Below, in pieces: positions 1,121 to 26,780 of a stretch of DNA of 38,795 nucleotides. Below the pieces are notes generated by a model, which was given only the letters and a program-made list of their open reading frames with translations, was not told the origin of the DNA and ran no database searches. Position numbers and translations under genes: made by a program. This DNA comes from a virus. Positions within the stretch are counted from its first letter, which is position 1. Each line of letters begins with the position of its first letter. Where the stretch lies: positions 1 to 38,795 of the IMG/VR virus record IMGVR_UViG_3300043419_000931; one strand, 5' to 3'.

Positions 1121-1136
1121 CCTCATGGGTGTGACA
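1121..1136 (-). promoter_or_regulatory. operator-like palindrome, copy 1 (weak)
   Basis: On the minus strand this reads TGTCAC-ACCC-ATGAGG and matches 10 of the 12 defined positions of TRTCAY-N4-RTGAYA. It lies about where transcription from the YqaJ promoter should start. Confidence 0.55.
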
Positions 1137-1142
1137 AGAGAA

Positions 1143-1158
1143 TATCATAACCGTGATG
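1143..1158. promoter_or_regulatory. operator-like palindrome, copy 2
   Basis: TATCAT-AACC-GTGATG, 11 of 12 positions. It covers the -10 element of the minus-strand YqaJ promoter, so a bound protein would block RNA polymerase. Confidence 0.7.
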
Positions 1159-1172
1159 CTGCTCAACCCCAA
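1144..1172 (-). promoter_or_regulatory. promoter of the YqaJ recombination operon
   Basis: On the minus strand, TTGGGG (1172-1167) is separated by 17 bases from TATGAT (1149-1144). Transcription should start near 1137 and run into the exonuclease gene at 1101. Palindrome copies 1, 2 and 3 sit at the start point, on the -10 and just upstream of the -35, a typical three-operator phage layout. Confidence 0.6.
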
Positions 1173-1174
1173 TT

Positions 1175-1190
1175 AGTCATTTATATGATA
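1175..1190. promoter_or_regulatory. operator-like palindrome, copy 3
   Basis: AGTCAT-TTAT-ATGATA, 11 of 12 positions, immediately upstream of the -35 of the YqaJ promoter. Confidence 0.65.
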
Positions 1191-1205
1191 ATCTTTTGGG
1201 AAAGA

Positions 1206-1826: not shown

Positions 1827-1856
1827 GAAACCTCCCGTCCCAAACATCTCCCATTC

Positions 1857-2216
1857 ATGAGTTCTACAAACAAACCCCCATACCTCGGAAAAGTTTACTC
1901 CTCATCAGGGAAATACAAAAATAAAAAAGTAGAAATTGACGGCGTCACGTTTGACAGCAAAAAAGAAGCCAAACGTTACGGCGAGCTTAAATTACTGGAA
2001 AGAATCAACGAAATCAATGATCTAGAGTTGCAGCCGAAGTTCCCGATAGTGGTCAACGGCAAGAAGATCGCCACGTACATCGCTGATTTCCGGTACCGAA
2101 CGAGCGACGGCAGCACGGTGGTCGAGGACGTCAAAGGGGTCAGGACGCCGGTTTACCGCATCAAGAAGAAGCTGGTTGAAGCACTGGAATCGATCTCAAT
2201 CGTTGAAATCGATTAA
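1857..2216 (+). CDS. DUF1064 phage protein
   Basis: A 119-residue basic protein of the DUF1064 family, with the typical core DSKKEAKRYGELKLLE near 40-55, then LQPKFPI and YIADFRY strands, and VEDVKG near 91. The conserved Glu/Asp/Lys pattern resembles a small PD-(D/E)XK nuclease-like fold, a relation often suggested for this family; here that is inference. The start at 1857 (MSSTNKPPY) is used because conserved sequence begins after it; no good Shine-Dalgarno site is visible. The first 100 bases are more A-rich than the surroundings. It is divergent from the repressor and the first gene of the plus-strand replication block. Confidence 0.8.
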   Translation: MSSTNKPPYLGKVYSSSGKYKNKKVEIDGVTFDSKKEAKRYGELKLLERINEINDLELQPKFPIVVNGKKIATYIADFRYRTSDGSTVVEDVKGVRTPVYRIKKKLVEALESISIVEID

Positions 2217-2225
2217 GACGGGGCT

Positions 2226-2254
2226 TTCACATCCGGCGTTGTCATTGTTATGAT
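2226..2254 (+). promoter_or_regulatory. promoter of the replication genes
   Basis: TTCACA (2226-2231), 17 bases, then TATGAT (2249-2254) with an extended -10 TG (2246-2247). Transcription should start near 2261, about 65 bases before the DUF1376-type gene. The -10 lies inside palindrome copy 4. Confidence 0.65.
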
Positions 2255-2255
2255 A
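2240..2255. promoter_or_regulatory. operator-like palindrome, copy 4 (perfect)
   Basis: TGTCAT-TGTT-ATGATA matches all 12 defined positions and overlaps the -10 of the replication promoter. Confidence 0.8.
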
Positions 2256-2325
2256 CTTCTCGCCACCCGGAATCATCTCGGTCGGCACCGGCCACGGTCG
2301 GGGAAGTAAAAAAGTAGAGGGTTTT

Positions 2326-3321
2326 ATGGAGAAAGATACTGACGTCGAACCGCTGGTCGCCCCCGAGGTTGACCTGCGTGACTTTGTTTTCATGCCGCTG
2401 GACGTGGTGCGGCTGCGCGACTCCGATCTTGGGGTGGTTTGCAGCGACGCCGAGATCAGGGCGGCTCTTTGGCTGTGGTGCGCATCGTGGCATCAAGTGC
2501 CAGCCGCAAGCCTCCCAGACCAAGACAACGTGCTTGCGTCAATGGCTGGGTTTGGGCGCGGCAAAGAAGCGTTGACGCGATGGCTTGAGGTGCGTCAAGG
2601 CGCGTTAAGGGGTTACGTCAAATGCGTTGACGGACGCCTTTACCACCCCGTCATCGCTGAAAAGGCGAACGAGGCTTGGGCCGAAAAAACCAAGTACCGG
2701 CAGCGCAGGGATGAGTTCCGCAAGAGGCAAAAAGACCGCGCCAATGCGCGATGGGACGGTAGCGCCCACTCACATGGCGACGATTCTGCAAGGCGATCAG
2801 GCGGCAAAACTGACGTTGATGCGGCACTGGCATTTGACGTGAATGCCAATGCCGCATTGCCGCCTTGGCATGATGACGTGAATGCCAATGCAAACATGCC
2901 AATGAAAGGGACAGTAAAAGGGACAGTAAAAGGGACAGGGACTAAAGATATATCTTCGTCAACTGCGTCGCCGTTGACGGAGCCTGCTGAAAATCCTCCA
3001 GCACCAGAAAAGCCAGCCAAGGCCACGACCTACCCGCCCGAGTTCTTGGAGGGCTTCTGGGACATCTACCCTCGCCGGGTCAACAAGCTGGATGCCTTGA
3101 AGTCGTGGAAGCGTGCCGTGACCCATGCCGGTGGTGGCAAAGACGCCCAAGACCGCATCAGGAAGGCCGCTGTGGCGTTTTCTGAGGCCAGCCGGGGCCA
3201 AGACCCCAAGTTCATCCCGCACCCCGCCACGTGGCTCAACAAGGGGGCTTGGGAAGAGGCCGAGAACTTCGCTCCCGGCCAGCACCGCCCGGGCTACATC
3301 CCGATGGGGGTGGGTGGTTGA
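2326..3321 (+). CDS. DUF1376-type replication initiation protein
   Basis: This 331-residue protein has an N-terminal DUF1376-like domain (about 18-120; FMPLDVVRLRDSDL, then ALWLWCASW) followed by a basic helix with RQRRDEFRKRQ near 129. A low-complexity linker (about 155-230) follows, then a C-terminal domain with FWDIYPRR and PATWLNKGAW, as seen in phage replication proteins related to lambda O and DnaT-like loaders. It probably binds the origin and recruits the helicase encoded just downstream. Start context is AGAGGG before ATG. The linker-coding DNA (2828-2956) holds iteron-like repeats and a small AT palindrome, suggesting the origin lies within the gene as in lambda O. Confidence 0.7.
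   Translation: MEKDTDVEPLVAPEVDLRDFVFMPLDVVRLRDSDLGVVCSDAEIRAALWLWCASWHQVPAASLPDQDNVLASMAGFGRGKEALTRWLEVRQGALRGYVKCVDGRLYHPVIAEKANEAWAEKTKYRQRRDEFRKRQKDRANARWDGSAHSHGDDSARRSGGKTDVDAALAFDVNANAALPPWHDDVNANANMPMKGTVKGTVKGTGTKDISSSTASPLTEPAENPPAPEKPAKATTYPPEFLEGFWDIYPRRVNKLDALKSWKRAVTHAGGGKDAQDRIRKAAVAFSEASRGQDPKFIPHPATWLNKGAWEEAENFAPGQHRPGYIPMGVGG
2828..2956. repeat. iteron-like cluster, candidate replication origin
   Basis: Two identical 18-bp copies of TGACGTGAATGCCAATGC lie at 2835-2852 and 2874-2891, 39 bp apart. The core ATGCCAATG occurs again at 2896-2904, and inverted partial copies (TTGGCAT, TGGCAT) sit at 2865-2871 and 2828-2833. Next come two tandem copies of GGGACAGTAAAA (2908-2931) plus a third partial copy, then the 12-bp palindrome AAGATATATCTT (2945-2956). 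Iterons followed by AT-rich DNA within the initiator gene is the lambda-type origin layout. Function is inferred; some of the repetition could simply be linker expansion. Confidence 0.5.
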
Positions 3322-3328
3322 GATGGCT

Positions 3329-3344
3329 TGTCACAACCACGACA
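3329..3344. promoter_or_regulatory. operator-like palindrome, copy 5
   Basis: TGTCAC-AACC-ACGACA, 11 of 12 positions, in the 48-bp gap before the zinc-ribbon primase gene. No clear -35/-10 pair is seen with it. Confidence 0.65.
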
Positions 3345-6682: not shown

Positions 6683-7840
6683 TCAAGCCTCGACCTTGAC
6701 CTTGTCGAGCATCCGGCCTGCAATGCTTTCGAGCTTGAGTCGCTGGTCTTGGAACTCGGCGTCACGCGCCACCGCACTCACGCCTTGGGCAAAGTCCCAA
6801 ATGGATGAAGGCAGCGTGTTTTCCTCGAGCAAGACCGTGTCGCAGATCAGCTTGGCCTGCTTTTGCGAGAAGCCCCACTTGTCGAGAAACTCGTTTCGCT
6901 CATCCGTGTTGCGGGCGACGATCGCTTTTTTTGCCGCCTGCACGCCGTCGATCAGGCGCTTGGTGCTGTTGCCTGAGAATGCCAGCAAGGCAGGCTCGGC
7001 TTCCTTGAGAAAGCGGTCGGGCGCAAACGTGGTGTGCTTGAAGGTCATCTCCTTGAAGTCCTCGACGCCCCAAAGGTTGCGGTTCTGGCAGACCCCACGC
7101 AGGTACATGCTTGCAAAGCCAAAGGTGCGGGAGCCGACTTCGCTGTTCCAAACGTAGAAACCTCGGAACATCAGGTCGGGCTGGCCGTTGGCAAGTTTGC
7201 CGACCTCGATCGGGTTCAAGTCGTCCACCAAAAACAGGAAGACGTCCCGGTCGCTGGCATAGAGCGTGGTGTTCTGCTTAGTGATTGTGACGTTGGGGTT
7301 GTATGTCACGCCGTGCTTGCCGTTCCAGTCGATGCAGCCGGGGACTTTCCATTGCGTGTCGCCGTTGCCGTTGCCAGCGATCTTCATCACCGACTCGACT
7401 ACATCGCTGTCGAAAATGCGCCCGTAACGCACGCTGGTGATGCCGCGCAGGCTGGTGCTGCCGTTCTCCCTGACGTAGGCGCTAACAGGCTTGGCTTCGG
7501 CCCGTGCAAGCCCGTGGTTAAGGTTCTGGGCCGCGATCTCGGCTGGCAGGGTGCGCAGGTAGTAGGCCGGGGCTTGTGCCACGCGGGTGATCTGGTCAAA
7601 GGCCCAATGCGATGGTTCAACGATGCTGCCTGCCAAGTCGAACGTCAGGGAGCCGCCACCGGCGTTGCACTTGATCTCGCTCGGGAGGATGTCAACCGTG
7701 CGGCTCTCGTCGCGGTACAGGCTCACGCGGTCGCGCAGGCTGGTCAAGTCAAGGAACTTCTCGTCGTCGGGGCGCATGGCCCATTGCTGGCTGACCGTGC
7801 CGACAAGCTGGCCTTTGGTGTGGTCGATGGAATGTGTCAT
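6683..7840 (-). CDS. DUF932 domain protein
   Basis: This 385-residue protein matches the DUF932 family carried by phages and plasmids (ACP-like regions WAFDQITRVAQAPAYYLRTL, RGITSVRYGRIFDSD, and the long middle region with FYVWNSEVGSRTFGFA). Its biochemical role is not established; members are often near recombination or anti-restriction genes. The start at 7840 is fixed by ACGGAGAAAGCCAA directly before ATG. The longer reading frame up to 7987 is in a shadow of the upstream gene. Second gene of an operon that begins at 8106. Confidence 0.8.
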   Translation of the reverse strand: MTHSIDHTKGQLVGTVSQQWAMRPDDEKFLDLTSLRDRVSLYRDESRTVDILPSEIKCNAGGGSLTFDLAGSIVEPSHWAFDQITRVAQAPAYYLRTLPAEIAAQNLNHGLARAEAKPVSAYVRENGSTSLRGITSVRYGRIFDSDVVESVMKIAGNGNGDTQWKVPGCIDWNGKHGVTYNPNVTITKQNTTLYASDRDVFLFLVDDLNPIEVGKLANGQPDLMFRGFYVWNSEVGSRTFGFASMYLRGVCQNRNLWGVEDFKEMTFKHTTFAPDRFLKEAEPALLAFSGNSTKRLIDGVQAAKKAIVARNTDERNEFLDKWGFSQKQAKLICDTVLLEENTLPSSIWDFAQGVSAVARDAEFQDQRLKLESIAGRMLDKVKVEA

Positions 7841-8168: not shown

Positions 8169-8184
8169 TATCATTCCTGTGATA
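8169..8184. promoter_or_regulatory. operator-like palindrome, copy 6 (perfect)
   Basis: TATCAT-TCCT-GTGATA, all 12 positions. On the minus strand it lies within a possible promoter, TTGACT (8197-8192), 19 bases, GATAAA (8172-8167), for the operon starting at 8106. The spacing is long, so the promoter call is weaker than the palindrome. Confidence 0.8.
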
Positions 8185-8322: not shown

Positions 8323-8338
8323 TGTCACTTGAATGAGA
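8323..8338. promoter_or_regulatory. operator-like palindrome, copy 7
   Basis: TGTCAC-TTGA-ATGAGA, 11 of 12 positions, about 15-30 bases downstream of the predicted start from the promoter at 8274. Binding there would act as a roadblock rather than by covering the -10. Confidence 0.6.
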
Positions 8339-8451: not shown

Positions 8452-9765
8452 ATGACCAGCAAGCTGCAAATCACCTACCGCCCGATCGGCGACTTAATCC
8501 CGTACATCCGCAACGCCCGCACGCACAGTGACGAGCAGGTCGTTCAACTGGCCGCGTCCATCAAGGAATTCGGCTGGACGAACCCGGTTCTCGTTGACGG
8601 CGAGCGCGGCATCATCGCGGGCCACGGGCGGGTGATGGCAGCACGCAAACTTGGGATGACCGAGGTGCCGACCATTGAGATCGGCCACATGACCGATGCG
8701 CAGCGCAAGGCATACATCCTTGCCGACAACAAGCTGGCGCTGAACGCCGGGTGGGACTTAGACCTGCTCCGCGTTGAGTTGGGCGAGTTGAACGACGGCG
8801 GCTTTGACATGGAGTTGCTCGGCTTTTCCGTCGACGAACTCGAGAAGCTGCTTGCCCCAGAAGGCACCGATGGCCTTACAGACCCTGACGAAGTTCCCGC
8901 CGTGCCGGAAATGCCGGTGGCCGTCGAGGGTGACGTCTGGGTGCTAGGCCAGCACAGGATCATTTGCGGCTCTTCGACCGAGGTTCACACGGTTGACAAG
9001 CTGTTTGCAGGCGTCAAGCCGAACTTGATGGTCACCGACCCGCCCTACGGCGTGGAATATGACCCGTCTTGGCGCAACGAAGCCCTCAAGGGTAGCAACA
9101 CAAAGCGCACCGGCAAGGTTCTGAACGACGACAAGGCTGATTGGCGCGAGGCTTGGGCGCTGTTCCCGGGCGACGTTGCCTACGTCTGGCACGGCGCACT
9201 GCACGCCACCACGGTGGCCGAGTCCCTGATTGCCTGCGACTTCAACATCCGCAGCCAGATCATCTGGGCGAAAACCCGTCTGGTCATTGGGCGCGGCGAC
9301 TATCACTGGCAGCACGAGCCGTGTTGGTACGCCGTCAAGAAGGCTGGCAAAGGCTGGTGGGCTGGCGACCGCAAGCAAACGACGCTTTGGACGATCGACG
9401 CAAAGGGTCAGGACACTGACACTGTCCACGGCACACAGAAGCCGGTCGAATGCATGAAGCGCCCGATCGAGAACAACTCCAGCCCCGGGCAGGCCGTCTA
9501 CGAGCCGTTTTCTGGCTCCGGCACAACCCTGATCGCCTGCGAGATGACTGGGCGCTCATGCTATGCCGTGGAACTCAACCCCGCCTATGTCGACGTGGCC
9601 GTGCTGCGCTGGCAGGCGTTCACGGGCAAGGCCGCGCACCTTGAGGCCGACGGTCGCACGTTCACCGAAGTCATGGGCGAGCGTGCCCCGGGCAAGCTGG
9701 TGGGCAACGAGCTTGGCAAGGAAGACAAAAAGGCCGAGAAAAAGGCCAGCAAGAAGGCCGCATGA
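8452..9765 (+). CDS. ParB-like domain fused to DNA methyltransferase
   Basis: This 437-residue protein has an N-terminal ParB/Srx-type domain (about 8-95, with IIAGHGR at 54-60) and a C-terminal amino-methyltransferase with DPPY (196-199) followed by FSGSGT (353-358), the motif order of beta-class N6-adenine or N4-cytosine enzymes. It probably methylates phage DNA to avoid host restriction; no restriction enzyme is encoded nearby. The last 25 residues are Lys/Ala/Glu rich. The start is supported by AGAGG five bases upstream, and the longer frame to 8329 would translate the terminator hairpin. Its stop overlaps the next gene by ATGA. Confidence 0.9.
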   Translation: MTSKLQITYRPIGDLIPYIRNARTHSDEQVVQLAASIKEFGWTNPVLVDGERGIIAGHGRVMAARKLGMTEVPTIEIGHMTDAQRKAYILADNKLALNAGWDLDLLRVELGELNDGGFDMELLGFSVDELEKLLAPEGTDGLTDPDEVPAVPEMPVAVEGDVWVLGQHRIICGSSTEVHTVDKLFAGVKPNLMVTDPPYGVEYDPSWRNEALKGSNTKRTGKVLNDDKADWREAWALFPGDVAYVWHGALHATTVAESLIACDFNIRSQIIWAKTRLVIGRGDYHWQHEPCWYAVKKAGKGWWAGDRKQTTLWTIDAKGQDTDTVHGTQKPVECMKRPIENNSSPGQAVYEPFSGSGTTLIACEMTGRSCYAVELNPAYVDVAVLRWQAFTGKAAHLEADGRTFTEVMGERAPGKLVGNELGKEDKKAEKKASKKAA

Positions 9766-11259: not shown

Positions 11260-11275
11260 TGTCGTAAGGGTGATT
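11260..11275. promoter_or_regulatory. operator-like palindrome, copy 8 (weak)
   Basis: TGTCGT-AAGG-GTGATT, 10 of 12 positions, in the only gap (46 bp) between the endolysin block and the gene at 11294. Confidence 0.5.
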
Positions 11276-11293: not shown

Positions 11294-11779
11294 ATGATCG
11301 CTGAAGCTGCCGCCGCGTTTGCGCTGGCCCAAGGTGCCGTCAATGGCATCAAAAAAGGCATCCAACTCGGACGCGACATCAATGACCTGACAAAGCAGGT
11401 GATGGCGTTCTTCGACGCCAAGGATGTCATCCAGAAAGCCGCCAACGAGGAACGACAGAAAGGCGGGAAGTCCGTCGAGTCCGAGGCGATGGAAAACGTG
11501 ATGCGGGCCAAGGCAATGGCCGACTTCGAGGCCGAGTTGAACCGCATCTTCGTGCTCACCAACAACGCCGAACTCTGGAACATGATGCTCGCAGAGCGTT
11601 CCCGGATTCGGGCCGAGAGGAAGTCGGCAGAAATCGCCGCCGAAAAGAAACGCCGCAAGGTTGCCGCCAAGCGTCAAGAGATCGCCGAGTGGACAGTCAT
11701 TGGCATAGTCGTCGTTGCCGTGGTTGGTGCCGCCGTCTGGGGGCTGATTGAACTGATCATCTGGAAGGCCGCACAGTAA
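11294..11779 (+). CDS. coiled-coil protein with C-terminal membrane anchor
   Basis: This 161-residue protein has an N-terminal amphipathic Ala-rich helix, a long charged coiled coil (about 55-130, with RSRIRAERKSAEIAAEKKRR) and a C-terminal membrane segment (134-157). It belongs to a set of similarly built phage proteins often found with small and large terminase genes in environmental phages; the function is unknown. AGGGGG lies seven bases before the ATG. Its 3' end overlaps a convergent gene by 23 bases. Confidence 0.7.
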   Translation: MIAEAAAAFALAQGAVNGIKKGIQLGRDINDLTKQVMAFFDAKDVIQKAANEERQKGGKSVESEAMENVMRAKAMADFEAELNRIFVLTNNAELWNMMLAERSRIRAERKSAEIAAEKKRRKVAAKRQEIAEWTVIGIVVVAVVGAAVWGLIELIIWKAAQ

Positions 11780-12206: not shown

Positions 12207-12473
12207 TCAGTGATCCTTTTTCAGTTCTTGCGACATCCACGGGGCGTCGGAATGCGAGAACTGCAAAAGCATTTCTGCCGCACCAACGATCGCCTCGCGG
12301 CGTTTGCCCTCTTGGGCCAACCCGACGCAGGCCGTGGCCGTTGCAAGGACAAGGGACTCGACCAGCAAAAGCGGCTCCGTCTCGGTGTTTTGGGCCAGCT
12401 TGACCGAAAACTCGTGGATGGCCGCAGCGACTGCCTCGCGCTGCCGGTGGCGTTGCTCAGACATTTCGCTCAT
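12207..12473 (-). CDS. unknown 88-residue helical protein
   Basis: A helical, soluble protein beginning MSEMSEQRHRQREAVAAAIH. The middle is rich in Ala/Leu (LLLVESLVLATATACVGLA), perhaps a buried helix rather than a membrane span. One base separates it from the next gene, and it overlaps the previous one by four. No family recognised. Confidence 0.6.
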   Translation of the reverse strand: MSEMSEQRHRQREAVAAAIHEFSVKLAQNTETEPLLLVESLVLATATACVGLAQEGKRREAIVGAAEMLLQFSHSDAPWMSQELKKDH

Positions 12474-12694
12474 GCCGCCTCCCTGACCAGTTCGAGGGAA
12501 ACGTTGCCAGCGGCAAGGACGACGGTTCCGTGCCCGCCAAGAACGGTGTGGATGTACGACTGCGCCTCGGCGCGGGTCTTGTAGGTCTTAGGGCCGAGCA
12601 AAAACTCACCGCGCTGGTTCTTCTGCGCGACGAAAAAGGTCAGGATTTGCGGGCGGGGTGTGCTGAACATCTCGTTTTGTTGATTGGTTGTCAT
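12470..12694 (-). CDS. unknown 74-residue protein with operator over its start
   Basis: The protein reads MTTNQQNEMFSTPRPQIL, then GEFLLGPKTYKTRAEAQSYI and a C-terminal beta-rich part. The ATG at 12694 is itself the last bases of palindrome copy 9 and has no Shine-Dalgarno site, so either the message is leaderless or translation starts at the second ATG (12670), which has only GAG before it. The long frame to 12868 is a shadow. It is the first gene of the lower minus operon. Confidence 0.6.
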   Translation of the reverse strand: MTTNQQNEMFSTPRPQILTFFVAQKNQRGEFLLGPKTYKTRAEAQSYIHTVLGGHGTVVLAAGNVSLELVREAA

Positions 12695-12704
12695 GGTTGT
12701 GATA
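12689..12704. promoter_or_regulatory. operator-like palindrome, copy 9 (perfect)
   Basis: TGTCAT-GGTT-GTGATA, all 12 positions. On the minus strand it contains AAGTATCAC, the same possible -10 context as copies 6, 10 and 12, and its left half includes the start codon of the gene at 12694. Confidence 0.8.
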
Positions 12705-13741: not shown

Positions 13742-13757
13742 TGTCACAGTGGTGATA
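13742..13757. promoter_or_regulatory. operator-like palindrome, copy 10 (perfect)
   Basis: TGTCAC-AGTG-GTGATA, all 12 positions. On the minus strand it overlaps TACTATCAC, a likely -10 (TACTAT) for the gene at 13724, with TTGATC 19 bases upstream. Confidence 0.8.
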
Positions 13758-13793: not shown

Positions 13794-13809
13794 TGTCATA
13801 AAGGTGATA
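13794..13809. promoter_or_regulatory. operator-like palindrome, copy 11 (perfect)
   Basis: TGTCAT-AAAG-GTGATA, all 12 positions, 52 bp from copy 10 and ending five bases before the small terminase ATG. Its right half GGTGAT could pair with the 16S tail (AUCACC), so operator and ribosome site may overlap. Confidence 0.8.
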
Positions 13810-13814: not shown

Positions 13815-14312
13815 ATGCCGCAAAGCAACAAGAAAGCCCCGGGCACCGCGACCCGGGAAAACGCCGGTGTTCCGGCAAGTAAAAAAACAAGGGTGAAGGC
13901 CCAACCCGCCCAACCCGTGCCCACTGAGGCCGAACAGGCGCGTTACAACGCCCCACACGAGCCGACTAAAACCAGCCGTGCGCTGGTGGAGATGGGTTTG
14001 GCCGGGGGTTTCACGCAGGAGCAGATCGCCCGGGTTATGGGCATCAGCGACAAAACCCTGCGGAAATATTACGCACCGGAGATCGAGGACGGCGGCGCGA
14101 CTGCCAGCCTGCGGGTGGCCGGAAACCTGTTTCGCATCGCCACCCAGACCTCGGACAACAAGGCGGCGCTGACGGGGGCTATTTTCTGGCTCAAGTCCCG
14201 TTGCCGGTGGCGGCAGGCTGACGGCATGGAGATTGATGCCGAGGCGAAGGTGGGCGAAGGTGACCAGCGCGTGGCGTTTACGCTGCGAATTGGCGAACGC
14301 GAATCGGAATGA
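13815..14312 (+). CDS. terminase small subunit
   Basis: A 165-residue DNA-binding protein directly upstream of the large terminase. After a basic disordered N-terminus (1-50) comes an HTH (66-88, FTQEQIARVMGISDKTLRKY), typical of phage small terminases, then a helical region (IFWLKSRCRWR) for oligomer formation and an acidic tail. It should recognise the packaging site and present DNA to TerL. The start is placed at 13815; the region upstream is the twin-palindrome control region. It overlaps TerL by ATGA. Confidence 0.85.
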   Translation: MPQSNKKAPGTATRENAGVPASKKTRVKAQPAQPVPTEAEQARYNAPHEPTKTSRALVEMGLAGGFTQEQIARVMGISDKTLRKYYAPEIEDGGATASLRVAGNLFRIATQTSDNKAALTGAIFWLKSRCRWRQADGMEIDAEAKVGEGDQRVAFTLRIGERESE

Positions 14313-15583: not shown

Positions 15584-16932
15584 TGGACACAAACGACGAC
15601 CGCGTCGACTACAAGTTGGCGTTTGACCCGAGCACGATCGGCTCCACCGGGCTTCGCCAGACGGGCGGCTACCTCTACGAGGAAATCCTCAAAGAGTTGC
15701 GTGGCCTACGCGGGGCAAACACCTACCGCGAGATGGCAGACAACGACCCGATCGTCGGCGGCGTGATCTTTGCCGTTTCTATGCTCATCCGGCAGTGCGA
15801 CTGGCGCTTTCAGGCCGTCGACGAATCCGAAGAGGCTGACCTTGGAAAAGCGTTTGCCGAGGAAGTGTTCGACGACATGACAACGCCCATGTCATCCGTC
15901 GTGGCTGAAATCTGCACGATGTTCGTCTACGGCTACGCCCCGATGGAGATCATCTGGAAAAAGCGCGGCGGCATGGACGCAGCGGACGGCGAGAGCCGTT
16001 CAAAGTACGACGACAACAAGATCGGCATTCGTGCGATCAGCCTGCGTGCGCAGCCGACCATTACTCGCTGGATGATTGACGCAGCAGACGGCTCAATCAA
16101 TGGCCTCGTGCAGCAACCCATCGCGGGCGCACAGGTCGCCATCCCGATTGAGAAGATGCTGCTTTTCCGCACGACCGATGAACGTAACAACCCAGAGGGC
16201 CGCAGCATCCTGCGCAACGCCTACCGTCCTTGGATGTTCAAAAAACGCATCGAGGAAATCGAGGGGGTTGGTATCGAGCGCGACCTCGCTGGCCTGCCCG
16301 TCGCTTACATCCCGAGCGAGTACTTTGACGCAACGGCAGACGCACAGCAAAAGCAGACACTCAAGGCGTGGCAGCGCATGGTCACGCAGGTTCGTCGTGA
16401 CCAGCAAGAGGGCATCCTCATCCCATCCGACCGCGACGCTTCGGGCAATCTGCTGTTCGACTTCAAGCTGCTCTCGACGGGCGGCACGCGATCGTTTGAC
16501 ACCTCAAAGGTCATCGACCGCTACAACCGCGCCATCGCCACGTCGGTGTTGGCCGACTTCATCTTTTTGGGCCAACAGTCCGTCGGCAGCTTTGCTCTGT
16601 CGTCTGACAAGACCGCGCTCTTTGCAACGGCGCTCGGCTCCTTCCTGCGCTCGATCGCGGACGTTTTCAATCGCCACCTGATGCCTCGTTTGTGGAAGCT
16701 CAACGGTTTGGACATGACCCTCATGCCTACAATCGTCCCGGGTGACCTTGAGCGTGCAAACCTTGCCGAGTTGGGCGGGTTCCTGCAACAACTTACTGCC
16801 GCTGGCGCACCGCTTTTTCCAGACCGCGAACTGGAAAATCACCTCCGGTCTTTGGCGGGTTTGCCGCAAGCGCCAGAGGAATCCGCAGACATGCCCGGGG
16901 ACATCGGTCTACCCGGGGATGCCCAAGAGTAA
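15583..16932 (+). CDS. portal protein (DUF935/Mu gp29-like)
   Basis: A 449-residue portal, the ring at the head vertex through which DNA enters and leaves. Family features are NTYREMADNDPIVGGVIFAV and IRQCDWRFQA near the N-terminus, PMEIIWKKRGG, and the C-terminal GLPVAYIPSEYF and IFLGQQSVGSFALS. The ATG at 15583 overlaps the TerL stop and has AGGAG seven bases upstream; a TTG at 15580 is not needed. Position between TerL and MuF genes agrees, although a minus-strand island is inserted between portal and MuF. Confidence 0.93.
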   Translation: MDTNDDRVDYKLAFDPSTIGSTGLRQTGGYLYEEILKELRGLRGANTYREMADNDPIVGGVIFAVSMLIRQCDWRFQAVDESEEADLGKAFAEEVFDDMTTPMSSVVAEICTMFVYGYAPMEIIWKKRGGMDAADGESRSKYDDNKIGIRAISLRAQPTITRWMIDAADGSINGLVQQPIAGAQVAIPIEKMLLFRTTDERNNPEGRSILRNAYRPWMFKKRIEEIEGVGIERDLAGLPVAYIPSEYFDATADAQQKQTLKAWQRMVTQVRRDQQEGILIPSDRDASGNLLFDFKLLSTGGTRSFDTSKVIDRYNRAIATSVLADFIFLGQQSVGSFALSSDKTALFATALGSFLRSIADVFNRHLMPRLWKLNGLDMTLMPTIVPGDLERANLAELGGFLQQLTAAGAPLFPDRELENHLRSLAGLPQAPEESADMPGDIGLPGDAQE

Positions 16933-17491: not shown

Positions 17492-17701
17492 TCAGCGCGA
17501 CCACCGTTTGGGTCGCAGAAATGTCGGGACGCCCTCAAGCAACTCGACGATGGACGCCGCGTACTCTGGCACCGGCAGTTGTCCTGCCGACCAGCGTTTG
17601 ACCGTCGCGTAGCTGATGCCGGTTGCAAGCGAAAACCGCTTCTTCCAGCCCCACCGACCGAGCAGCGCCGCGCAACGAGTGTTGAACTCGTCATTCGTCA
17701 T
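17492..17701 (-). CDS. small HTH protein, Cro/XRE-like
   Basis: A 69-residue protein with a helix-turn-helix at about 20-40 (FSLATGISYATVKRWSAGQL) and a C-terminal helix. It could be a second DNA-binding regulator of this phage and is therefore an alternative candidate for binding the 16-bp palindrome. The start at 17701 was chosen over the shadow-like upstream frame. It ends one base after the convergent membrane protein gene. Confidence 0.7.
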   Translation of the reverse strand: MTNDEFNTRCAALLGRWGWKKRFSLATGISYATVKRWSAGQLPVPEYAASIVELLEGVPTFLRPKRWSR

Positions 17702-19087: not shown

Positions 19088-19103
19088 TCTCACCGTGGTG
19101 ATA
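19088..19103. promoter_or_regulatory. operator-like palindrome, copy 12
   Basis: TCTCAC-CGTG-GTGATA, 11 of 12 positions. On the minus strand it overlaps AACTATCAC with TTGATT 19 bases upstream, the same geometry as copy 10. Confidence 0.75.
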
Positions 19104-19139: not shown

Positions 19140-19155
19140 TGTCATCGGGGTGATA
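19140..19155. promoter_or_regulatory. operator-like palindrome, copy 13 (perfect)
   Basis: TGTCAT-CGGG-GTGATA, all 12 positions, 52 bp from copy 12 and five bases before the MuF gene ATG, exactly as copy 11 is before the small terminase. Confidence 0.8.
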
Positions 19156-19160: not shown

Positions 19161-20297
19161 ATGAATCCTCTCAATCAGTTGCATCAAAGCGACGCAATCG
19201 GGCGGTACAAACGCCTGTTGCCCCCAAATGCCGTGGTAATCAAGGCCCGTGGCGATGCCCCGATGAACGAGATCGAGCGGCTGGCGGGCAAGCTGGAGCC
19301 GCAGTTGGCGAAGGCCATCCTTGCCGGTTTGCAGAAAATGGGCGCTGATGCCGACCTCGACTTGATCGTGGCCGCTCTCCAATCCGGGGATGTGAGCAAG
19401 GTAATCGCTGCCTTGGCCATCGACCCCAAGGCGGCGTTCTCTGAGGTGTCACCGGCCATCCAAAGCGGGCTGTACGCCTCCGGGGCCGCAACAGCCGCCA
19501 CCATTCGGCTCACAGGGGCCGCGTTTGCCTTCGACCAACTCAACCCCCGGCTCATCACTTGGCTGCAAACCTACAACCTCGGGCTGATTCGCCAGATCAG
19601 CGACTCCACCAAGGAAGCAGTCCGTTCGGTGCTGGTCAGCGGCATGACGGACGGCAAGAACCCCAAGGACGTCGCCCGCCAGATCAAGGGCATCGTCGGC
19701 CTGACCGAGCGACAGGCCAAGGCGGTGATGAATTACCGCAAGGAACTCGAAACGTTCCACCTCAAGCGCACGGCTGGCAGCTTTGGCTTGGGCCGCAAGG
19801 TCAACAGCGTCAACGGCACGCAGGTGACCATCCTCGACGAGGACGGGCTGAACTCGGACGGCGTGAACGCACGTCGCTTGCGCGACTTTCGATACGACGG
19901 GCAACTTTCCCGAGCCGTTGAAACAGGCAAGCCGCTGTCGCCGGAGCAGATCGACAAGATGGTCGCCGCCTACCAGCGCAAGTACCTCGCCTATCGGTCG
20001 CGCACGATTGCCCGCACCGAGGCACTGCGCACCACCAACATGGGTGTCCAAGACGCATGGCGGCAGGCGATCGAAGATCAGGTCGTCCAAGAGTCGCTTG
20101 TGCGACGCCAGTGGGTGGTGGCGAAGGACGAGCGACTATGCGAGTGGTGCAGCCCAATCCCGAAAATGAACCCCAAGCGTGGCGTCAAACTCGACCAGCC
20201 TTTTGCAACACCAAAAGGCCCGGTGACACTGCCGCCAGTCCACCCCAATTGCCGCTGCACGGTTTTCATCCGTCAGTGGGAGCCTGAACAACTTTAA
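19161..20297 (+). CDS. MuF-like head morphogenesis protein
   Basis: A 378-residue minor head protein of the Mu gpF/SPP1 gp7 type. The family core is at about 275-375: IARTEALRTTNMGVQDAWR, then DERLCEWCSPIP and PPVHPNCRCTVF, with the Cys/His pairs of the domain. The N-terminal part is helical. MuF proteins sit inside the head near the portal and are linked to ejected effector domains in many phages; here the effector is a separate huge gene two genes downstream. The only ribosome site is GGTGAT inside palindrome copy 13. Confidence 0.92.
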   Translation: MNPLNQLHQSDAIGRYKRLLPPNAVVIKARGDAPMNEIERLAGKLEPQLAKAILAGLQKMGADADLDLIVAALQSGDVSKVIAALAIDPKAAFSEVSPAIQSGLYASGAATAATIRLTGAAFAFDQLNPRLITWLQTYNLGLIRQISDSTKEAVRSVLVSGMTDGKNPKDVARQIKGIVGLTERQAKAVMNYRKELETFHLKRTAGSFGLGRKVNSVNGTQVTILDEDGLNSDGVNARRLRDFRYDGQLSRAVETGKPLSPEQIDKMVAAYQRKYLAYRSRTIARTEALRTTNMGVQDAWRQAIEDQVVQESLVRRQWVVAKDERLCEWCSPIPKMNPKRGVKLDQPFATPKGPVTLPPVHPNCRCTVFIRQWEPEQL

Positions 20298-21007: not shown

Positions 21008-21832
21008 ATGGAAAATCAACTCGTCGAGTTGCAGAAACGAATCGCAAGTCTATCAAGCCGCATTGGCATAGCCAGCGATCGTGTGTCAAAGGGTGAGACA
21101 TTCACTCCTCCAGACGGCGTGCGCTCCGCTGCAAATCGTGGTTTGGAACTTCGCGCACAGTGGAAGCGTGGAGGATTGTCGAACAGTCAGGCAAGTGATC
21201 AAGGCATCGGCTCCGGCGTGCAGCGTGCCGTCAACCTCAAGAACGGCGACGCGATCAGCCTTGAAACCGTCAAGCGGATGCACGCGTTTTTCTCTCGCCA
21301 CGCCAAGAACTACAGGCCCGACGAAAAAGAGTCCGACGGCGGGCCGACCGCAGGAACGATTGCTTGGTACTTGTGGGGCGGCAACGCTGGCAAAGCATGG
21401 GCCGAGGGAATCGCAAACCGGGTGCGCAAGGATGCCATGCCTGCCGCAAATGCGGTGGGGCCGACCGCAAGTGCGGTGCATGTCCCCGCGCCAATGGGCA
21501 GCAAGCCCAAGCCCAAGAAAAAAGCCGAGCCGGTCAAGAAGCTGTCCGAGCCGATCGTCAATGCGCTGAAGCAGAAGGTTGAAGAAGCCAACGCAGCGGC
21601 AAAGGACGACACCCGCAAGACGACCTTCGACGTGCTTCGGCAGGTCTACGAGCGCGGCGCTGCTGCCCATCAGGCTGACAAGACCACCAGTGCGACCTCT
21701 GGCGCTTACGCGCTGGCCCGGGTCAACGCATACCTGAAGCTGCTGCGCACCGGTCGGCCCGACAACAAGGCTTATGTGCAAGACAACGGCCTGCTGCCGT
21801 CTGGCCATCCAAAGGCAACAAAGGAGAAGTGA
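21008..21832 (+). CDS. probable packaged head protein, unknown function
   Basis: A 274-residue protein. The N-terminal half has the pattern LSNSQASDQGIGSGVQRAV, ISLETVKRMHAFFSRHAKNY and GTIAWYLWGGNAGKAWAEGI, which recurs in phage head-associated and multi-domain ejected proteins; its function is not known. A Lys/Pro/Ala linker (about 160-185) leads to a helical C-terminal domain (RQVYERGAAAHQADKTTSAT). AGGAGC precedes the ATG. It is coupled to the giant multi-enzyme gene, and may be its partner in the virion. Confidence 0.65.
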   Translation: MENQLVELQKRIASLSSRIGIASDRVSKGETFTPPDGVRSAANRGLELRAQWKRGGLSNSQASDQGIGSGVQRAVNLKNGDAISLETVKRMHAFFSRHAKNYRPDEKESDGGPTAGTIAWYLWGGNAGKAWAEGIANRVRKDAMPAANAVGPTASAVHVPAPMGSKPKPKKKAEPVKKLSEPIVNALKQKVEEANAAAKDDTRKTTFDVLRQVYERGAAAHQADKTTSATSGAYALARVNAYLKLLRTGRPDNKAYVQDNGLLPSGHPKATKEK

Positions 21833-21834
21833 CC

Positions 21835-24800
21835 GTGGCATCAAACTTGTCTTTTGACCTTCTGCGTGCGCGTCTTGAGATCATCAAGGCGCTCGCCAAC
21901 CGCTGGCCTGCCGGTACCCAAGGCGGGAAAGGGGGCCAGTTCGCCCCAAAAGGCTCCACGGGCGGCGCAAGCGGCACCCTGCAAGCTCCGCAGCTTGGCA
22001 TCGGGCCAAAAGGCTACGCCCCCGCGTTTGGCTCGTGGGGGGCCAACTCTCTCGTGCCGGTAACGCCACCCAAGGGTGCCAAGCCGCACCAGCAAATGGG
22101 CGAGGACGGCAAGCCGGTGACGATTAATTACCCGAGCCGCGCCAGCAGCCCGCAAACGTGGACGGACAAAAACAAGACGGCCACTTTCACCCCCGGCAGT
22201 GCCACACCAGAAAAGCTCAACGGCGTGAAGATGTCGTCGTGGAAAGCCCCGACTGACAAAGCCGGGTGGGCCAAGGTGGACGGCACCAACCCTGACCTTG
22301 ACGCGCTGCCTTTCCAGCCGCACCCAACCAAGAAAACGGGCGCTGGCGTGATGGTCGTCGAGCCTGATGGCCGTGTCTGGCTGACGCGCCCAACAAACAG
22401 TTTCGGTGGCTACGTCCACACCTTCCCCAAGGGCACGGCAGAGGACGGTCTTTCCTTGCAGCAAAACGCCATCAAGGAGGCGTACGAGGAGACCGGGCTG
22501 AAGGTCAAGATCGTCGGCGTCCTCGGCGATTACGAGCGCGACACATCGAAGGCCCGCTTCTTTGTTGCACGCCGCGTCGGCGGCACGCCAAAGGACATGG
22601 GTTGGGAGTCGCAGGCCATGCGTCTTGCACCCATGAAGGAGGCGCTTCAGCTTCTCAACAAGCCGCACGACAAGGACATCCTCAACGCCCTGTCCTACGA
22701 ACTGAGCACCTTGCGCAAGGCCGCTCCGGCTCCGGCAAAAGGCGGCGCGTGGCAAAAGCAGGAACGCTGGCCAGAAGGCACGCCCGTTGGCGGGCAGTGG
22801 AAGGCAATGGGGGCTGACGGCCTCACCTTGCCGCCCAAGCTCGGCAGTGCAGCCAATCCCGCCTACGACAAGAAGGCCGCGACGCTGCACGCAGCAGCGC
22901 AGGCAGGCGACATCGCAAAAGTGCAGGCGTACGTCAGCGCCAACGCCGAGAAGCTCAACAAGTTCGATCAGGTCAAAGCGTCTGGCATCACGCCCAACTC
23001 CCAGACCAAGTGGGCAGCAGGCTCTGTGCAGTACGGCAACCAGTTGATCAAGGACTACGAGTCGAAGGGCAAGGCTGTCGCAAGCGCTGACAAACTCGCT
23101 GGCCCTGCCAAGTTGTCCGCATGGAAGCAGACAGGCGCAAAGCCCGGTGGCTCCAACCCCGGGGCGATCTACACCGACGAGAACGGCGTGCGCTGGCTGG
23201 TCAAGGGCAGCAACGCGGGCGGCGCGACCAAGCAAAGCCACAACGAAGTGCTGGCGTCCAAGCTGATGGCAGCGGCAGGCATCGGCGTGCCCGAAATGAA
23301 GCTGGTCGATCTCGAAGGCAAGCACGGCGGTGGCATTGGCGTCGCGTCCAAGATGATGGACAACCTCCAGTCGCTTGGGTTGAACACCCCCGGTCACCTC
23401 AGTGCTGCGCAAGCCGACTTCGCCGTCCACGCGTGGCTTGCCAACTACGACGCGATTGGCATGTCCTACGACAACACGAAGATCGGCGTGGATGGCAAGG
23501 CCGTCAACATCGACCCGGGCGGTGCGCTGGAGTACCGCGCCCAAGGCAAGCTGAAAACCGACTTCACCAACTCCGTGCTCGAACTAAAGTCGATGCGCGA
23601 CGCCCAAAAGAACCCGCAGGCTGCTGCCGTGTACGGGTCAATGACCAGCTCCCAGATTGCCGAAAGTGCAAAGAAGGTCGCGGCGATCAGCGACGACTCG
23701 ATCACCAAGATGGTGATGACCTACGGCGGCGGCAACGACGCAGAGAAAAAGGCGCTGGCGCTCAAACTGATCAACCGCAAGCAGGACTTGGCCCAACGGG
23801 TTCTGGAGATGCAGACCGGTGAGAAGGTAAAGGCCGAGCCAGCGCCAACGGTTGCCGCCACAGCGCCCGTTTCGGTCGCTCCTGCGGCAACCCCCAAAGC
23901 GGCAGCGCCTGTGGCCGCACAGGCCCAAATCACCCAGAAGGTGACGCAGAGCGTTTTCCACAACACAAGCGACGGCCACAACAAGTTCTGGGCCGTTTCG
24001 GTCAGCGGCAATACGTTGGTGACGCACTACGGGAAGATCGGTACCGCAGGTTCAACGACGACCAAGCAGTTCGGCAGCACCGGGGAGGCGTCTGTTGCGG
24101 CTGCAAAGCTGATGGCTCAAAAAACCAAGGGCGGCTACTCCTACCAAACAAAGCAAGACGCGCCAGACCAGATTGCGTTGTTGCACGGAGCGATGGGTGC
24201 TCCTGTTTCGCAAAAGCCCGCTGCTGTTGCGCAACCGGCCCCAACCGTTTCACAAACACCGGCTTCTGTATCGGGTGGGCGCGGCGGCAATCTTCCAAGC
24301 GTGCCTACGTACGCTGGCATTCACCAAGCGAAGTACAAGGAAGTTTCAAAAGAAATAGCCAACATGCCGGTCGACGCTCTGATCGCCACAAAGCAGATCG
24401 CTGGCGGCAACATCGTTTTCACAACCGGTGCCGGGAAAATCACCCTCAAAAACCCGCCAAGCAGCGCGGACGGGAAAAAGTTTGACAGCTACTTCAACAG
24501 CCTTGTCGCGGCCAAGACGGCTGCGGAGCCAGCGCAGGTCGCGCCTACGACGCAGGCCAGCGTTCAGGCAACGACTGCACCCAAAAAGAAGCTCGCCGAC
24601 CTGCCAGCGTTTGTCGAAAGCGTCCCCGGTGCAAAGGCCAAGTTCGAGTTCCTCGCCGACAAGGCAACGAACAGTTGGGCGTCTGGCAACCTGACCATGC
24701 TGGAGGGGATGTTCCACGCCGCAAGCAACGAGAGCACGCACAACTCTGGACTGCTAACCGCGCACATCGGTGGCCTGATGGACGACCTCAAGGCCAAGCA

Positions 24801-26211
24801 GACTGCAACGCTGGTGGACAAGATGGGCGACGACTCGCTCAAGGCCGTCAACGTCCCGCAACCCGGCAAAAACGTCGCCGCTGGCCCCGCGATGCCAGAC
24901 TTCGACAAGCAGAAGCTGCCAACGTCGAACACGAACGCGGCAAGTCACAACAAGAAGATCGACCAGATCAAGGCGTCGGCCCAATCCGGTGACGTCAAGG
25001 CGCTGCTTGGAATGTCGTTTGCGACGAACACCTATGGCGTCAAGCAGGCCAAGATCGTCAACGACACGCTGGCATCGCTCGGCATCGCCGAGAAGGTTAC
25101 GGCAGGCCAAAAGGCCAACACCCACCCCGCATTGTTTGGCGGCATGAAGCCAGCCGACGCGGCAGACCTGTTGGTGTCGCAAGGCAAGGCCATCCCAAAG
25201 CCACCACAAGCGCCCGGTACCACCGCTGTCAAGATCGACGCCGCCAAGCTGCCGTCCAAGCCGGAGTTCATCACCTCCAAAGTCGAGGTCAAAAAGGAGA
25301 ACGAGCACCACGCAGAGGTGCTGTTGCAATTCGCCCGCAACGGCGACCTTGCAAACCTGAAGTCCTACGACAAGTTCAGCCAATTGAGCCAGAAGCTGAC
25401 CGAGTTCAAGCAGGACTTGGTGCAGGAACTGGAGGTGCAGCTTTTCCCGCCGCGCCCCAAGACAGGCATGAGCAAGAACGTCCCACCGATCACGATCGGA
25501 AAGACGCCTTACAAGAGCCTCGCTGCGCACGCCGAGCATTTCAAGCCGGTGCCCGTCACCGACGCTTACAACGTGTCGGCCCACCACAAGGCGGCTTCGT
25601 TCGTCATGCTTGGCAAGACGGATGCGGGAACAGTGAAGCAGGCGTTCGCCGGGGCTGGGACGTGGACAGGCAAGGTTCCGCAGTCGATCAAAGATCAGCA
25701 CAACAAGCACATCGAAACGCTCGACCAAAAGACCAAGGACAACGTGCGCAAGTACACGACCAATTGGGCCTTCGGTGCGAACGACCAGATGCGCAACAAG
25801 GGCGAGATCAACTCAACGATTCAAGCCGTCTCGGAGGCGATTCACAAGGCGTCGCTGGAACTTCCAGAGGGAAGCCAGTACGCCCGGTCTATCAGCATCA
25901 GCGGCGGCGCGTTGAAGCAAATCCAAGCACTCCAGCCCGGTGACGTCATTCAGTCGCCGCAGTTTGAGTCCATCAAGCAAAAGGGTGGCTACGGCGAAGG
26001 CAAGAACGTGGAGATGCGTCTTGTCGCGGCGGCGGGCGCAAAGGCGATCTGGGTGGATGACAAGCTCTCCGCGCACAAGGGGGAACTCGAACTGGTCATG
26101 GCCGAAAACGCACGGTATGCTATCAACCGTGTGTACGAATCCAGCGGAAAAACGATCATTGAAGCGGTAATCTTGCCGACCGTCAAAGGCACACTGAAGG
26201 GCAAACCATGA
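21835..26211 (+). CDS. giant multi-enzyme protein: Nudix, kinase-like, WGR, ADP-ribosyltransferase
   Basis: A protein of 1458 residues (numbers below count from the GTG at 21829). A phage-type motif RWPAGTQGGKGGQF (25-38) is repeated as RWPEGTPVGGQW (313-324). Nudix domain at about 168-290: box GTAEDG at 202, KEAYEETGL at 215-223, with the outer Glu replaced. HipA/PI-kinase-like domain at about 420-665: K459, E473, WLANYDAIG (D541), YDN (548-549), IDPGG (D562). Pro/Ala linker, then WGR-like domain (708-775, YGKIG at 734). Two unassigned helical regions follow. The C-terminus (1300-1450) is an R-S-E type ADP-ribosyltransferase: R1353, F.S at 1379-1381, E1419/E1421. Being next to MuF, it is probably packaged and injected to modify host proteins. 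GTG at 21835 is preferred over 21829 because AAGGAG is then eight bases away. Confidence 0.88.
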   Translation: MASNLSFDLLRARLEIIKALANRWPAGTQGGKGGQFAPKGSTGGASGTLQAPQLGIGPKGYAPAFGSWGANSLVPVTPPKGAKPHQQMGEDGKPVTINYPSRASSPQTWTDKNKTATFTPGSATPEKLNGVKMSSWKAPTDKAGWAKVDGTNPDLDALPFQPHPTKKTGAGVMVVEPDGRVWLTRPTNSFGGYVHTFPKGTAEDGLSLQQNAIKEAYEETGLKVKIVGVLGDYERDTSKARFFVARRVGGTPKDMGWESQAMRLAPMKEALQLLNKPHDKDILNALSYELSTLRKAAPAPAKGGAWQKQERWPEGTPVGGQWKAMGADGLTLPPKLGSAANPAYDKKAATLHAAAQAGDIAKVQAYVSANAEKLNKFDQVKASGITPNSQTKWAAGSVQYGNQLIKDYESKGKAVASADKLAGPAKLSAWKQTGAKPGGSNPGAIYTDENGVRWLVKGSNAGGATKQSHNEVLASKLMAAAGIGVPEMKLVDLEGKHGGGIGVASKMMDNLQSLGLNTPGHLSAAQADFAVHAWLANYDAIGMSYDNTKIGVDGKAVNIDPGGALEYRAQGKLKTDFTNSVLELKSMRDAQKNPQAAAVYGSMTSSQIAESAKKVAAISDDSITKMVMTYGGGNDAEKKALALKLINRKQDLAQRVLEMQTGEKVKAEPAPTVAATAPVSVAPAATPKAAAPVAAQAQITQKVTQSVFHNTSDGHNKFWAVSVSGNTLVTHYGKIGTAGSTTTKQFGSTGEASVAAAKLMAQKTKGGYSYQTKQDAPDQIALLHGAMGAPVSQKPAAVAQPAPTVSQTPASVSGGRGGNLPSVPTYAGIHQAKYKEVSKEIANMPVDALIATKQIAGGNIVFTTGAGKITLKNPPSSADGKKFDSYFNSLVAAKTAAEPAQVAPTTQASVQATTAPKKKLADLPAFVESVPGAKAKFEFLADKATNSWASGNLTMLEGMFHAASNESTHNSGLLTAHIGGLMDDLKAKQTATLVDKMGDDSLKAVNVPQPGKNVAAGPAMPDFDKQKLPTSNTNAASHNKKIDQIKASAQSGDVKALLGMSFATNTYGVKQAKIVNDTLASLGIAEKVTAGQKANTHPALFGGMKPADAADLLVSQGKAIPKPPQAPGTTAVKIDAAKLPSKPEFITSKVEVKKENEHHAEVLLQFARNGDLANLKSYDKFSQLSQKLTEFKQDLVQELEVQLFPPRPKTGMSKNVPPITIGKTPYKSLAAHAEHFKPVPVTDAYNVSAHHKAASFVMLGKTDAGTVKQAFAGAGTWTGKVPQSIKDQHNKHIETLDQKTKDNVRKYTTNWAFGANDQMRNKGEINSTIQAVSEAIHKASLELPEGSQYARSISISGGALKQIQALQPGDVIQSPQFESIKQKGGYGEGKNVEMRLVAAAGAKAIWVDDKLSAHKGELELVMAENARYAINRVYESSGKTIIEAVILPTVKGTLKGKP

Positions 26212-26714
26212 CAACTCAAGACCACGACGATCTCATCGGCAGCGGCTTTGTTTCGCAAGTCGGCGACGCTGGCTCAAAGCCGATCTTGGCATCGCTGCAA
26301 ACGGCGTCTGACCTGCTGCGCAACTTGGTTGCCGACGCGCTTGCCCGCCGAGGTATGTACCTTGAGGGGAAGATGGAGCCAGCAGAAGCGCAGCAAGAAG
26401 ACGTTGCAGCTTGCCTTGATCTTGCTGAACTGCTCATGGGCCGTGGCCCGCGATCGGTGGCCTTCTTTGTCCAGCCGTGGAATAGCCCGGAGCAGCTTGG
26501 TCAGTTCCTGATCGACTCGTACGACTTGGAGTGCAAGGACGACGAGGCCGTGTTTTCTCTCCTCGTTTCGATGCTCTCTGCCGTCTACCAAGAGGTGGAC
26601 AGCATGGCACTGAACAAACAGGACGCGGAAGAGGAAGGCTGGAGGCTTGACGGCATCATCGAAGCGCACGCGCACGCGCTGACCGGCATCCCATATCCGA
26701 CCGAAGACGAGTGA
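26208..26714 (+). CDS. unknown acidic protein coupled to the ADP-ribosyltransferase gene
   Basis: A 168-residue, strongly acidic protein (MTTQDHDDLIGSGFVSQVGD). Its ATG overlaps the stop of the giant gene (ATGA), so the two are made together. Helical core with LLRNLVADALARRGMYLEGK, FFVQPWNSPEQLGQFLIDSY and an acidic C-terminus. An acidic partner right after an ADP-ribosyltransferase domain is the usual place for an immunity protein or chaperone, but no known antitoxin family is recognised. Confidence 0.6.
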   Translation: MTTQDHDDLIGSGFVSQVGDAGSKPILASLQTASDLLRNLVADALARRGMYLEGKMEPAEAQQEDVAACLDLAELLMGRGPRSVAFFVQPWNSPEQLGQFLIDSYDLECKDDEAVFSLLVSMLSAVYQEVDSMALNKQDAEEEGWRLDGIIEAHAHALTGIPYPTEDE

Positions 26715-26744
26715 TCGTCACAACTAGCGCCAACATGGCCTAGA

Positions 26745-26765
26745 AGCCGCCAACCCTCGGCGGCT
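26745..26765 (+). terminator. hairpin after the giant-effector operon
   Basis: AGCCGCC (26745-26751) pairs perfectly with GGCGGCT (26759-26765) around a 7-base loop. It has no U-tract and its last base is the first base of palindrome copy 14, so RNA polymerase arrest and operator binding may be linked here. It may also be a plain attenuator. Confidence 0.45.
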
Positions 26766-26780
26766 ATCACAACCACGACA
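26765..26780. promoter_or_regulatory. operator-like palindrome, copy 14
   Basis: TATCAC-AACC-ACGACA, 11 of 12 positions, in the 213-bp gap ahead of the protease-scaffold-capsid genes. No strong -35/-10 pair is seen in that gap. Confidence 0.65.

Follow-up and report, generated by a model that had tools for sequence, protein, structure and literature searches.

In phage lambda, the gene for the CI repressor is flanked by the operators of a leftward recombination and a rightward replication operon, each operator being 17 bp long with the half-site TATCAC, and the repressor of Streptomyces phage phiC31 has dispersed, symmetric and conserved inverted repeats. Phage P1 is described as having one repressor, C1, with 22 operators of 17 bp that are asymmetric and dispersed over the phage genome (PMC8546580), and about 24 dispersed, mostly intergenic stoperators are reported for L5 and D29 (PMC5712189). 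The account of the telomere phages N15 and phiKO2 in PMC4997575, which also gives the 17-bp length of the lambda operator, describes 16-bp operators of the repressor CB in a lambda-like order, with self-cleavage residues not detected in CB. For the most part, phages described so far belong to one of two groups (PMC1934351): in lambda-like phages the operators are few and symmetric, in P1- or L5-like phages many and asymmetric. Here we report that a virus record of 38,795 bases and approximately 59% GC (IMG/VR record IMGVR_UViG_3300043419_000931, hereafter the window, meaning the whole stretch of DNA analysed), with tailed-phage genes for terminase, portal, head morphogenesis, capsid, tail completion and tape measure, contains dispersed copies of a 16-bp palindrome, TRTCAY-N4-RTGAYA, which are very probably the operators of the phage's own immunity repressor, encoded at 1206-1826 on the minus strand.

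The likeness to lambda is closest around the repressor gene, which is likewise flanked by sites of a leftward recombination and a rightward replication operon; the half-site TATCAC equals that of lambda, and the protein is likewise predicted to join a helix-turn-helix (HTH) to a LexA-like C-terminal fold. Unlike in lambda, sites also stand at accessory and late blocks, they are 16 bp long with a 4-bp middle, no cro-like gene lies between the repressor and its divergent neighbour, and the usual protease residues are missing. The system resembles that of P1 C1 in dispersal under what would be one repressor, but the P1 sites are asymmetric and those described here symmetric; phiC31 differs in host and protein. 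As in L5, there are many dispersed intergenic sites, presumably for a single repressor, but L5 stoperators are asymmetric and oriented one way, their binding lowering a downstream reporter, whereas the motif is palindromic. In N15 and phiKO2, no more than five operators are described, which lie upstream of repA and in the cB-cro interval. The first-pass annotation had likened the palindromes to a stoperator-like, genome-wide set of symmetric operators at the starts of gene blocks, and this likeness is borne out by shuffled sequences, by placement in relatives, modestly by promoter elements and by co-occurrence with the repressor, from which we infer binding. What appears new is that operators of the symmetric, lambda-like kind occur dispersed over early, accessory and late blocks; among the matches listed in literature searches on dispersed or palindromic operators, 186 CI and this phage group, no title or abstract start reported this motif.

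All 14 positions given in the first-pass annotation hold the motif with the match counts claimed: six sites are perfect (2240, 8169, 12689, 13742, 13794 and 19140), six carry one mismatch (1143, 1175, 3329, 8323, 19088 and 26765) and two carry two (1121 and 11260). Dinucleotide-preserving shuffles of the window gave expectations of 0.01 perfect matches, 0.29 matches with at most one mismatch and 6.2 with at most two, against 6, 13 and 22 found, respectively. The strict sites, with at most one mismatch, are beyond chance, whereas two-mismatch sites are individually weak, because 22 were seen with 6.2 expected; the sole point in favour of site 1121 is its position beside 1143 and 1175, and 11260 is also weak by itself. 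The list of 14 was nevertheless incomplete, since a one-mismatch match at 38167-38182 had been overlooked. This match lies in frame over YHGCDCW in the tail gene 38101-38535 (PHROG 329), and the adjoining DCWGL is common to the four relatives looked at, so that it is probably a coincidence of coding sequence and no operator. The claim that no site lies inside the structural operon was not quite right either, as site 26765 sits between two structural-region genes, one ending at 26714 and the next starting at about 26817. Sites 3329-3344 and 26765-26780 are equal at 15 of 16 bases, 14 of them consecutive, and share the same odd right arm, CGACA, though they are distant in the genome. In an unguided count of hexamer inverted repeats with mismatches, the motif did not come out on top, GC-rich half-sites dominating the raw numbers; when no more than one mismatch was allowed, four sites were counted for TATCAC with a gap of 4 bp, tied behind a first with five.

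The window is not the whole genome, because a contig 99.9-100% identical over the shared parts (G001) carries approximately 19 kb more, with two further one-mismatch sites and a tyrosine integrase (Phage_integrase, PF00589). By inference, the full genome would be about 58 kb long, with about 15 such sites, and the phage temperate. Near-identity searches among named phages gave no match to the window. Being the same virus, G001 was left out of the counts for relatives, promoters and placement.

A portal search gave 33 relatives, and at least one site (at most one mismatch) was present in 24 of them, many being short fragments. The first-pass annotation had proposed a motif search over relatives, and such a search found enrichment: ten longer portal-sharing relatives, studied in pieces, contain 79 sites, as compared with 4 for the reversed pattern, and 73 of the 79 lie outside called genes or less than 30 nt from a start, although called genes cover 79-91% of bases. 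Genes were called with a home-made caller, which missed or shortened 38101-38535, the resolvase gene and the start at 19161. Placement was scored for sites with at most one mismatch within 320 bp of a gene, with the window included and the genomes in which the gene was found as denominator. A site lies upstream of recE in 9 of 10 genomes, near the replication operon (after the resolvase gene) in 9 of 10, near the terminase small subunit gene (terS) in 9 of 10 and near the head morphogenesis gene in 9 of 11. Conservation is strong for these four placements and weaker for the others: methyltransferase, 7 of 11; gene 6683-7840, 4 of 8; and gene 26817, 3 of 10 (the window, G020 and G024). The comparison genes gave 0 of 10 (major capsid), 0 of 8 (tail gene 38101) and 1 of 8 (primase-helicase), and no one-mismatch site was found at the position of 3329 in relatives that have the primase-helicase gene.

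A portal scan of bacterial genomes gave 26 loci, 17 without a one-mismatch site, seven with one and two with two; the total of 11, none perfect, compares with 10 for the reversed pattern, and no repressor match was found in these 26 loci.

The first-pass annotation had named two candidate binders, and the 1206-1826 protein fits, in that it co-occurs with the sites. It has 206 residues and a C1-type HTH (HTH_26, 28.4 bits against a Pfam cut-off of 22), with no Pfam match to Peptidase_S24. In an AlphaFold2 model (mean predicted local distance difference test score 82.6, predicted template modelling score 0.58), the C-terminal part, from about residue 76-85, resembles LexA, 186 CI and lambda CI (VIA-align; Z 9.5-11.0, root mean square deviation about 3 over 102-118 residues). 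The first three Foldseek matches were chains of 186 CI or lambda-186 hybrids, yet 186 CI ties with LexA and lambda CI for the C-terminal domain by VIA-align, and it was absent from the sequence matches up to an E value of 10. Self-cleaving S24 repressors such as lambda CI and LexA have a catalytic Ser/Lys motif, which we used for comparing residues. The C-terminal domain has Gly at the catalytic Ser position and Arg-Glu where Lys is expected, the usual residues being replaced by GDG(M/L)HP and (V/I)RE in all five aligned homologues.

We compared the occurrence of sites and repressor. A full-length homologue occurs in five near-full relatives, G006, G010, G013 and G015 (48-54% identity to the repressor of the window) and G024 (32%), all of which have 8-15 sites. 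Conversely, the capsid-sharing phages RSP, RDJL Phi 1, RHph_Y60 and Tedan, in which no repressor homologue was found, have 0, 0, 2 and 3 sites, with 0, 0, 1 and 1 for the control; among long relatives without an intact repressor, G029 has five (control 2), G011 two (control 0), and G030, G021 and G027 none. A repressor-only scan added 10 loci with four distinct repressors, and at least one site was present in all 10. For three of the four, sites lie at approximately 455-554 bp before and 653-704 bp after the repressor start, and sites flank the repressor gene at the early operons in the window and most relatives. Of 25 candidate stretches from a repressor scan of bacterial genomes, none was confirmed as a relative. 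The only distant repressor relatives among phages and among plasmids were, respectively, in Paracoccus phage Pyei1 and a Rhodoplanes record, and neither has a site, indicating that operators differ at approximately 30% identity; with the G013 homologue as query, a search among phages gave no match. G010, G013 and G015 gave integrase matches and G006 a weak one (E 1e-5), but none was obtained at E below 0.1 for G007, G008, G011, G020, G024 and G030, so that by sequence matches the integrase follows the repressor except in G024. Together, these comparisons point to the 1206-1826 repressor as the best candidate binder of the motif.

The repressor homologue of G024 differs in the recognition helix, which reads LSPSIFYNL in place of (I/L)RSST(I/L)YNF in the others. 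Of the 30 half-sites of G024, a genome of 64% GC, 28 have T at position 6, as compared with 50 C and 28 T in the window, G006, G010 and G013 (Fisher p 6e-9, the half-sites not being independent). In G024, a differing recognition helix thus goes with a shifted operator. G024 also has a second homologue (L040:7957-8658), with the HTH part only.

For the promoter context, we excluded sites inside called genes or near piece ends; G015, whose site flanks closely resemble those of G013, entered neither the promoter nor the pair counts. The 74 remaining sites scored 7.31 on a simple sigma-70 scale, as compared with 6.90 for flank-shuffled controls (p 7e-7) and 5.93 for random intergenic sequence. Among 148 flanks, TTGC or TTGA begins 8 bp ahead of the site in 12 and 28 bp ahead of it in nine, with a mean of 2.0; the operator would occupy the promoter spacer in the former layout and come after the -10 element in the latter. 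Neighbouring pairs within 160 bp are mostly (11 of 16) spaced at 31-32 or 51-52 bp. Searching for pairs of sites spaced at exactly 52 bp yielded three stretches, and at exactly 51 bp five. In two of these, L117 (in a contig of 62,920 bases) and L120 (in one of 34,323 bases), palindromes of this kind recur in arrays with a period of 25-26 bp; L120, the one compared with the relatives by blastn, gave no match, and the arrays probably belong to other systems, perhaps as operators or iterons.

In the model that we propose, the repressor would dock on each 16-bp palindrome as a dimer, by way of its two HTH domains. The operators around the repressor gene, similar to OL and OR of lambda, would shut off the leftward recombination operon, with recE, and the rightward replication operon, and further operators would act at accessory and late blocks (genes 8106 to 6262, methyltransferase, terS, head morphogenesis and 26817), such that one protein would silence independently transcribed blocks in the lysogen. 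Repression would operate mainly by exclusion of RNA polymerase, as a share of the sites lies in the spacer or over the -10 or start of promoter-like sequences. Autoregulation is suggested by a weak site at the start of the repressor gene, and a site with one or two mismatches overlaps this start in four of the six genomes with a full-length repressor. Binding to paired sites may be cooperative, because 31-32 and 51-52 bp correspond to about three and five helical turns. Since the usual protease residues are missing, induction through an antirepressor seems likelier than RecA-driven self-cleavage; phage 186 is described as using the antirepressor Tum (PMC7708051). A more speculative extension, which we hold as possible yet doubtful, is that a non-cleavable, 186-CI-like repressor with approximately 15 symmetric operators over a 58-kb prophage, several of them in helically phased pairs, would assemble into a single cooperative, bridged complex, keeping early, accessory and late blocks silent together until an antirepressor releases it all at once. 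If the sites are operators, immunity groups and the starts of operons could be predicted from them in phages that have not been cultured.

Several observations, gathered in this and the next paragraph, weigh against the sites being operators at which this repressor blocks initiation. G020 has 13 sites and no intact repressor, which a deletion scar would explain: between its resolvase gene and recE lies a reading frame ending VEIESAHAVLSIAQPIG, in which up to 10 of 14 residues equal those of repressor C-termini (7 of 14 for that of the window), with a best BLOSUM62 score of 53, as compared with 39 for the largest of 20,000 shuffles. A pattern made from the repressor C-termini had no other occurrence in G008, G011, G020 and G030. 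Because such a remnant is what a deletion of the repressor would leave, G020 looks like a repressor-deletion derivative that kept its sites, similar to lytic D29, whose repressor is reported to have been lost by a deletion ending in the repressor gene, with sites kept (PMC5712189). The same cannot be said of G008, which has five sites (control 0) and no intact repressor, and in which no trace like that of G020 was found. G007 (L055:6560-6910) has the repressor reduced to the HTH domain, followed by a stop, and keeps the operator upstream of recE; the HTH-only gene may encode a Cro-like protein or be a decaying repressor. Repressors that are intact, reduced to the HTH or lost, with the sites retained, form a natural series in which the rate of operator decay in a phage turned lytic could be studied. 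Retention in G020 and G008 would also fit binding by a host regulator that couples phage transcription to host physiology, as does CtrA, whose host sites in phage promoters are described in PMC9437464. We regard this as highly improbable, since the motif tracks the phage repressor and is near control level in the capsid-sharing phages without it; the two bacterial genomes scanned gave 35 matches with 34 for the control (Contendobacter) and an enrichment of 17 to 3, none perfect (Rubellimicrobium), which is a weak test. It is also very unlikely that another DNA-binding protein of the phage is the main binder, such as the second candidate of the first-pass annotation, the small 17492-17701 protein, as a Cro-like or late regulator. 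This protein looks HTH-like by eye and has homologues in the site-bearing G007 and G008, but has no Pfam or PHROGs match (the PHROGs search and one Pfam search used a longer reading frame), and no homologue with E up to 1e-3 was found in G006, G010, G013, G015, G020 and G024, which have 8-15 sites; moreover, the operator change in G024 goes with the recognition helix of the repressor. The 17492-17701 protein was therefore rejected as the binder on its distribution, restricted among the relatives to G007 and G008.

With the repressor kept as the probable binder, further difficulties concern its gene, its model and its mode of action. The fourth repressor of the repressor-only scan, identical in L088 and L089, goes with one and two sites, none of which flanks its gene, and this argues against a strict flanking rule; the window has no strong site at the repressor's own promoter. 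G024 has the repressor and gave no match to the integrase query. The structural model rests on five sequences, and its full-chain template modelling scores are low (0.32-0.43), so that the fold match holds domain by domain. Gene 6683-7840 has no site within 320 bp in the window, where a small gene lies between, nor in G010, G011 and G030. The promoter signal is modest, only 12 of the 74 sites reaching the 95% level of the flank-shuffled controls, and promoters are poor at sites 3329, 8323, 26765 and 38167 of the window. Additionally, the sites at 13794 (terS) and 19140 (head morphogenesis) overlap the apparent ribosome-binding region just 5' of the ATG, such that transcription must start upstream of both; this also fits stoperator-like roadblocks, in which the same repressor would chiefly halt elongation and not initiation, as does the absence of a convincing promoter at some sites. 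Roadblocks as the chief mode of action nevertheless appear unlikely to us, in view of the TTGC and TTGA elements enriched at two fixed distances from the sites. Finally, several of the sites share bases with -10-like hexamers or have an ATG close to their end, as would be seen if the motif were a by-product of TATA-like promoter composition and start codons, with no protein site at all. Twelve positions fixed in twofold symmetry, 13 sites with 0.29 expected from shuffles, and the 79 sites in ten relatives, with 4 for the reversed pattern and near the same genes, leave this explanation with practically no probability.

To the left of the repressor gene, the RecE-like exonuclease gene (94-1101, minus strand) is the first of the leftward, PL-like operon. 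Upstream of it lies an OL-like cluster, comprising a two-mismatch site that is weak alone (1121-1136), a one-mismatch putative operator overlapping a candidate -10 element, TATGAT, with TTGGGG as -35 (1143-1158), and a second one-mismatch putative operator 32 bp from it (1175-1190). The two-mismatch site at 1794-1809, at the repressor start, is the possible autoregulatory operator. Divergent from the repressor is a Holliday-junction-resolvase-like gene (DUF1064; 1857-2216, plus strand), followed by a perfect, OR-like putative operator (2240-2255), which is upstream of the replication operon and overlaps a candidate -10 element, TATGAT, with TTCACA as -35 at 17 bp. The replication protein gene (PHROG 22470, with a weak DUF1376 match) occupies 2326-3321 on the plus strand, and a one-mismatch putative operator (3329-3344) precedes the primase-helicase region.

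Further along the window, a perfect putative operator (8169-8184), upstream of the leftward genes 8106 to 6262, occupies the spacer of a candidate promoter, TTGCTA-16-TAAAGT. A one-mismatch putative operator with a poor promoter score (8323-8338) lies upstream of the ParB-N/methyltransferase gene, a weak two-mismatch site (11260-11275) upstream of gene 11294-11779, and a perfect one (12689-12704) upstream of the leftward accessory gene 12470-12670. Two 52-bp pairs follow, in which one site is upstream of leftward accessory genes and the other immediately 5' of a rightward start. The first joins perfect putative operators at 13742-13757 and 13794-13809, the latter at the start of terS (13815-14312, plus strand); the second joins a one-mismatch site (19088-19103) and a perfect one (19140-19155), the latter at the start of the head morphogenesis gene (19161-20297, plus strand). 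The last putative operator, between structural-region genes and upstream of gene 26817 (26765-26780), has one mismatch and a poor promoter score.

Three further genes were noted. The gene at 8452-9765 (plus strand), with an operator-like site upstream, encodes a ParB-N-like domain fused to an N6/N4 DNA methyltransferase. In the part of G001 outside the window, a radical SAM protein gene (L059:16345-17709), with a homologue in G010, has a one-mismatch site shortly upstream, at 16286. Within the structural region, 21829-26211 (plus strand) encodes a multi-domain, possibly virion-borne protein of 1460 residues, in which NUDIX and WGR domains are accompanied by weak matches of HipA-like and ADP-ribosyltransferase type.

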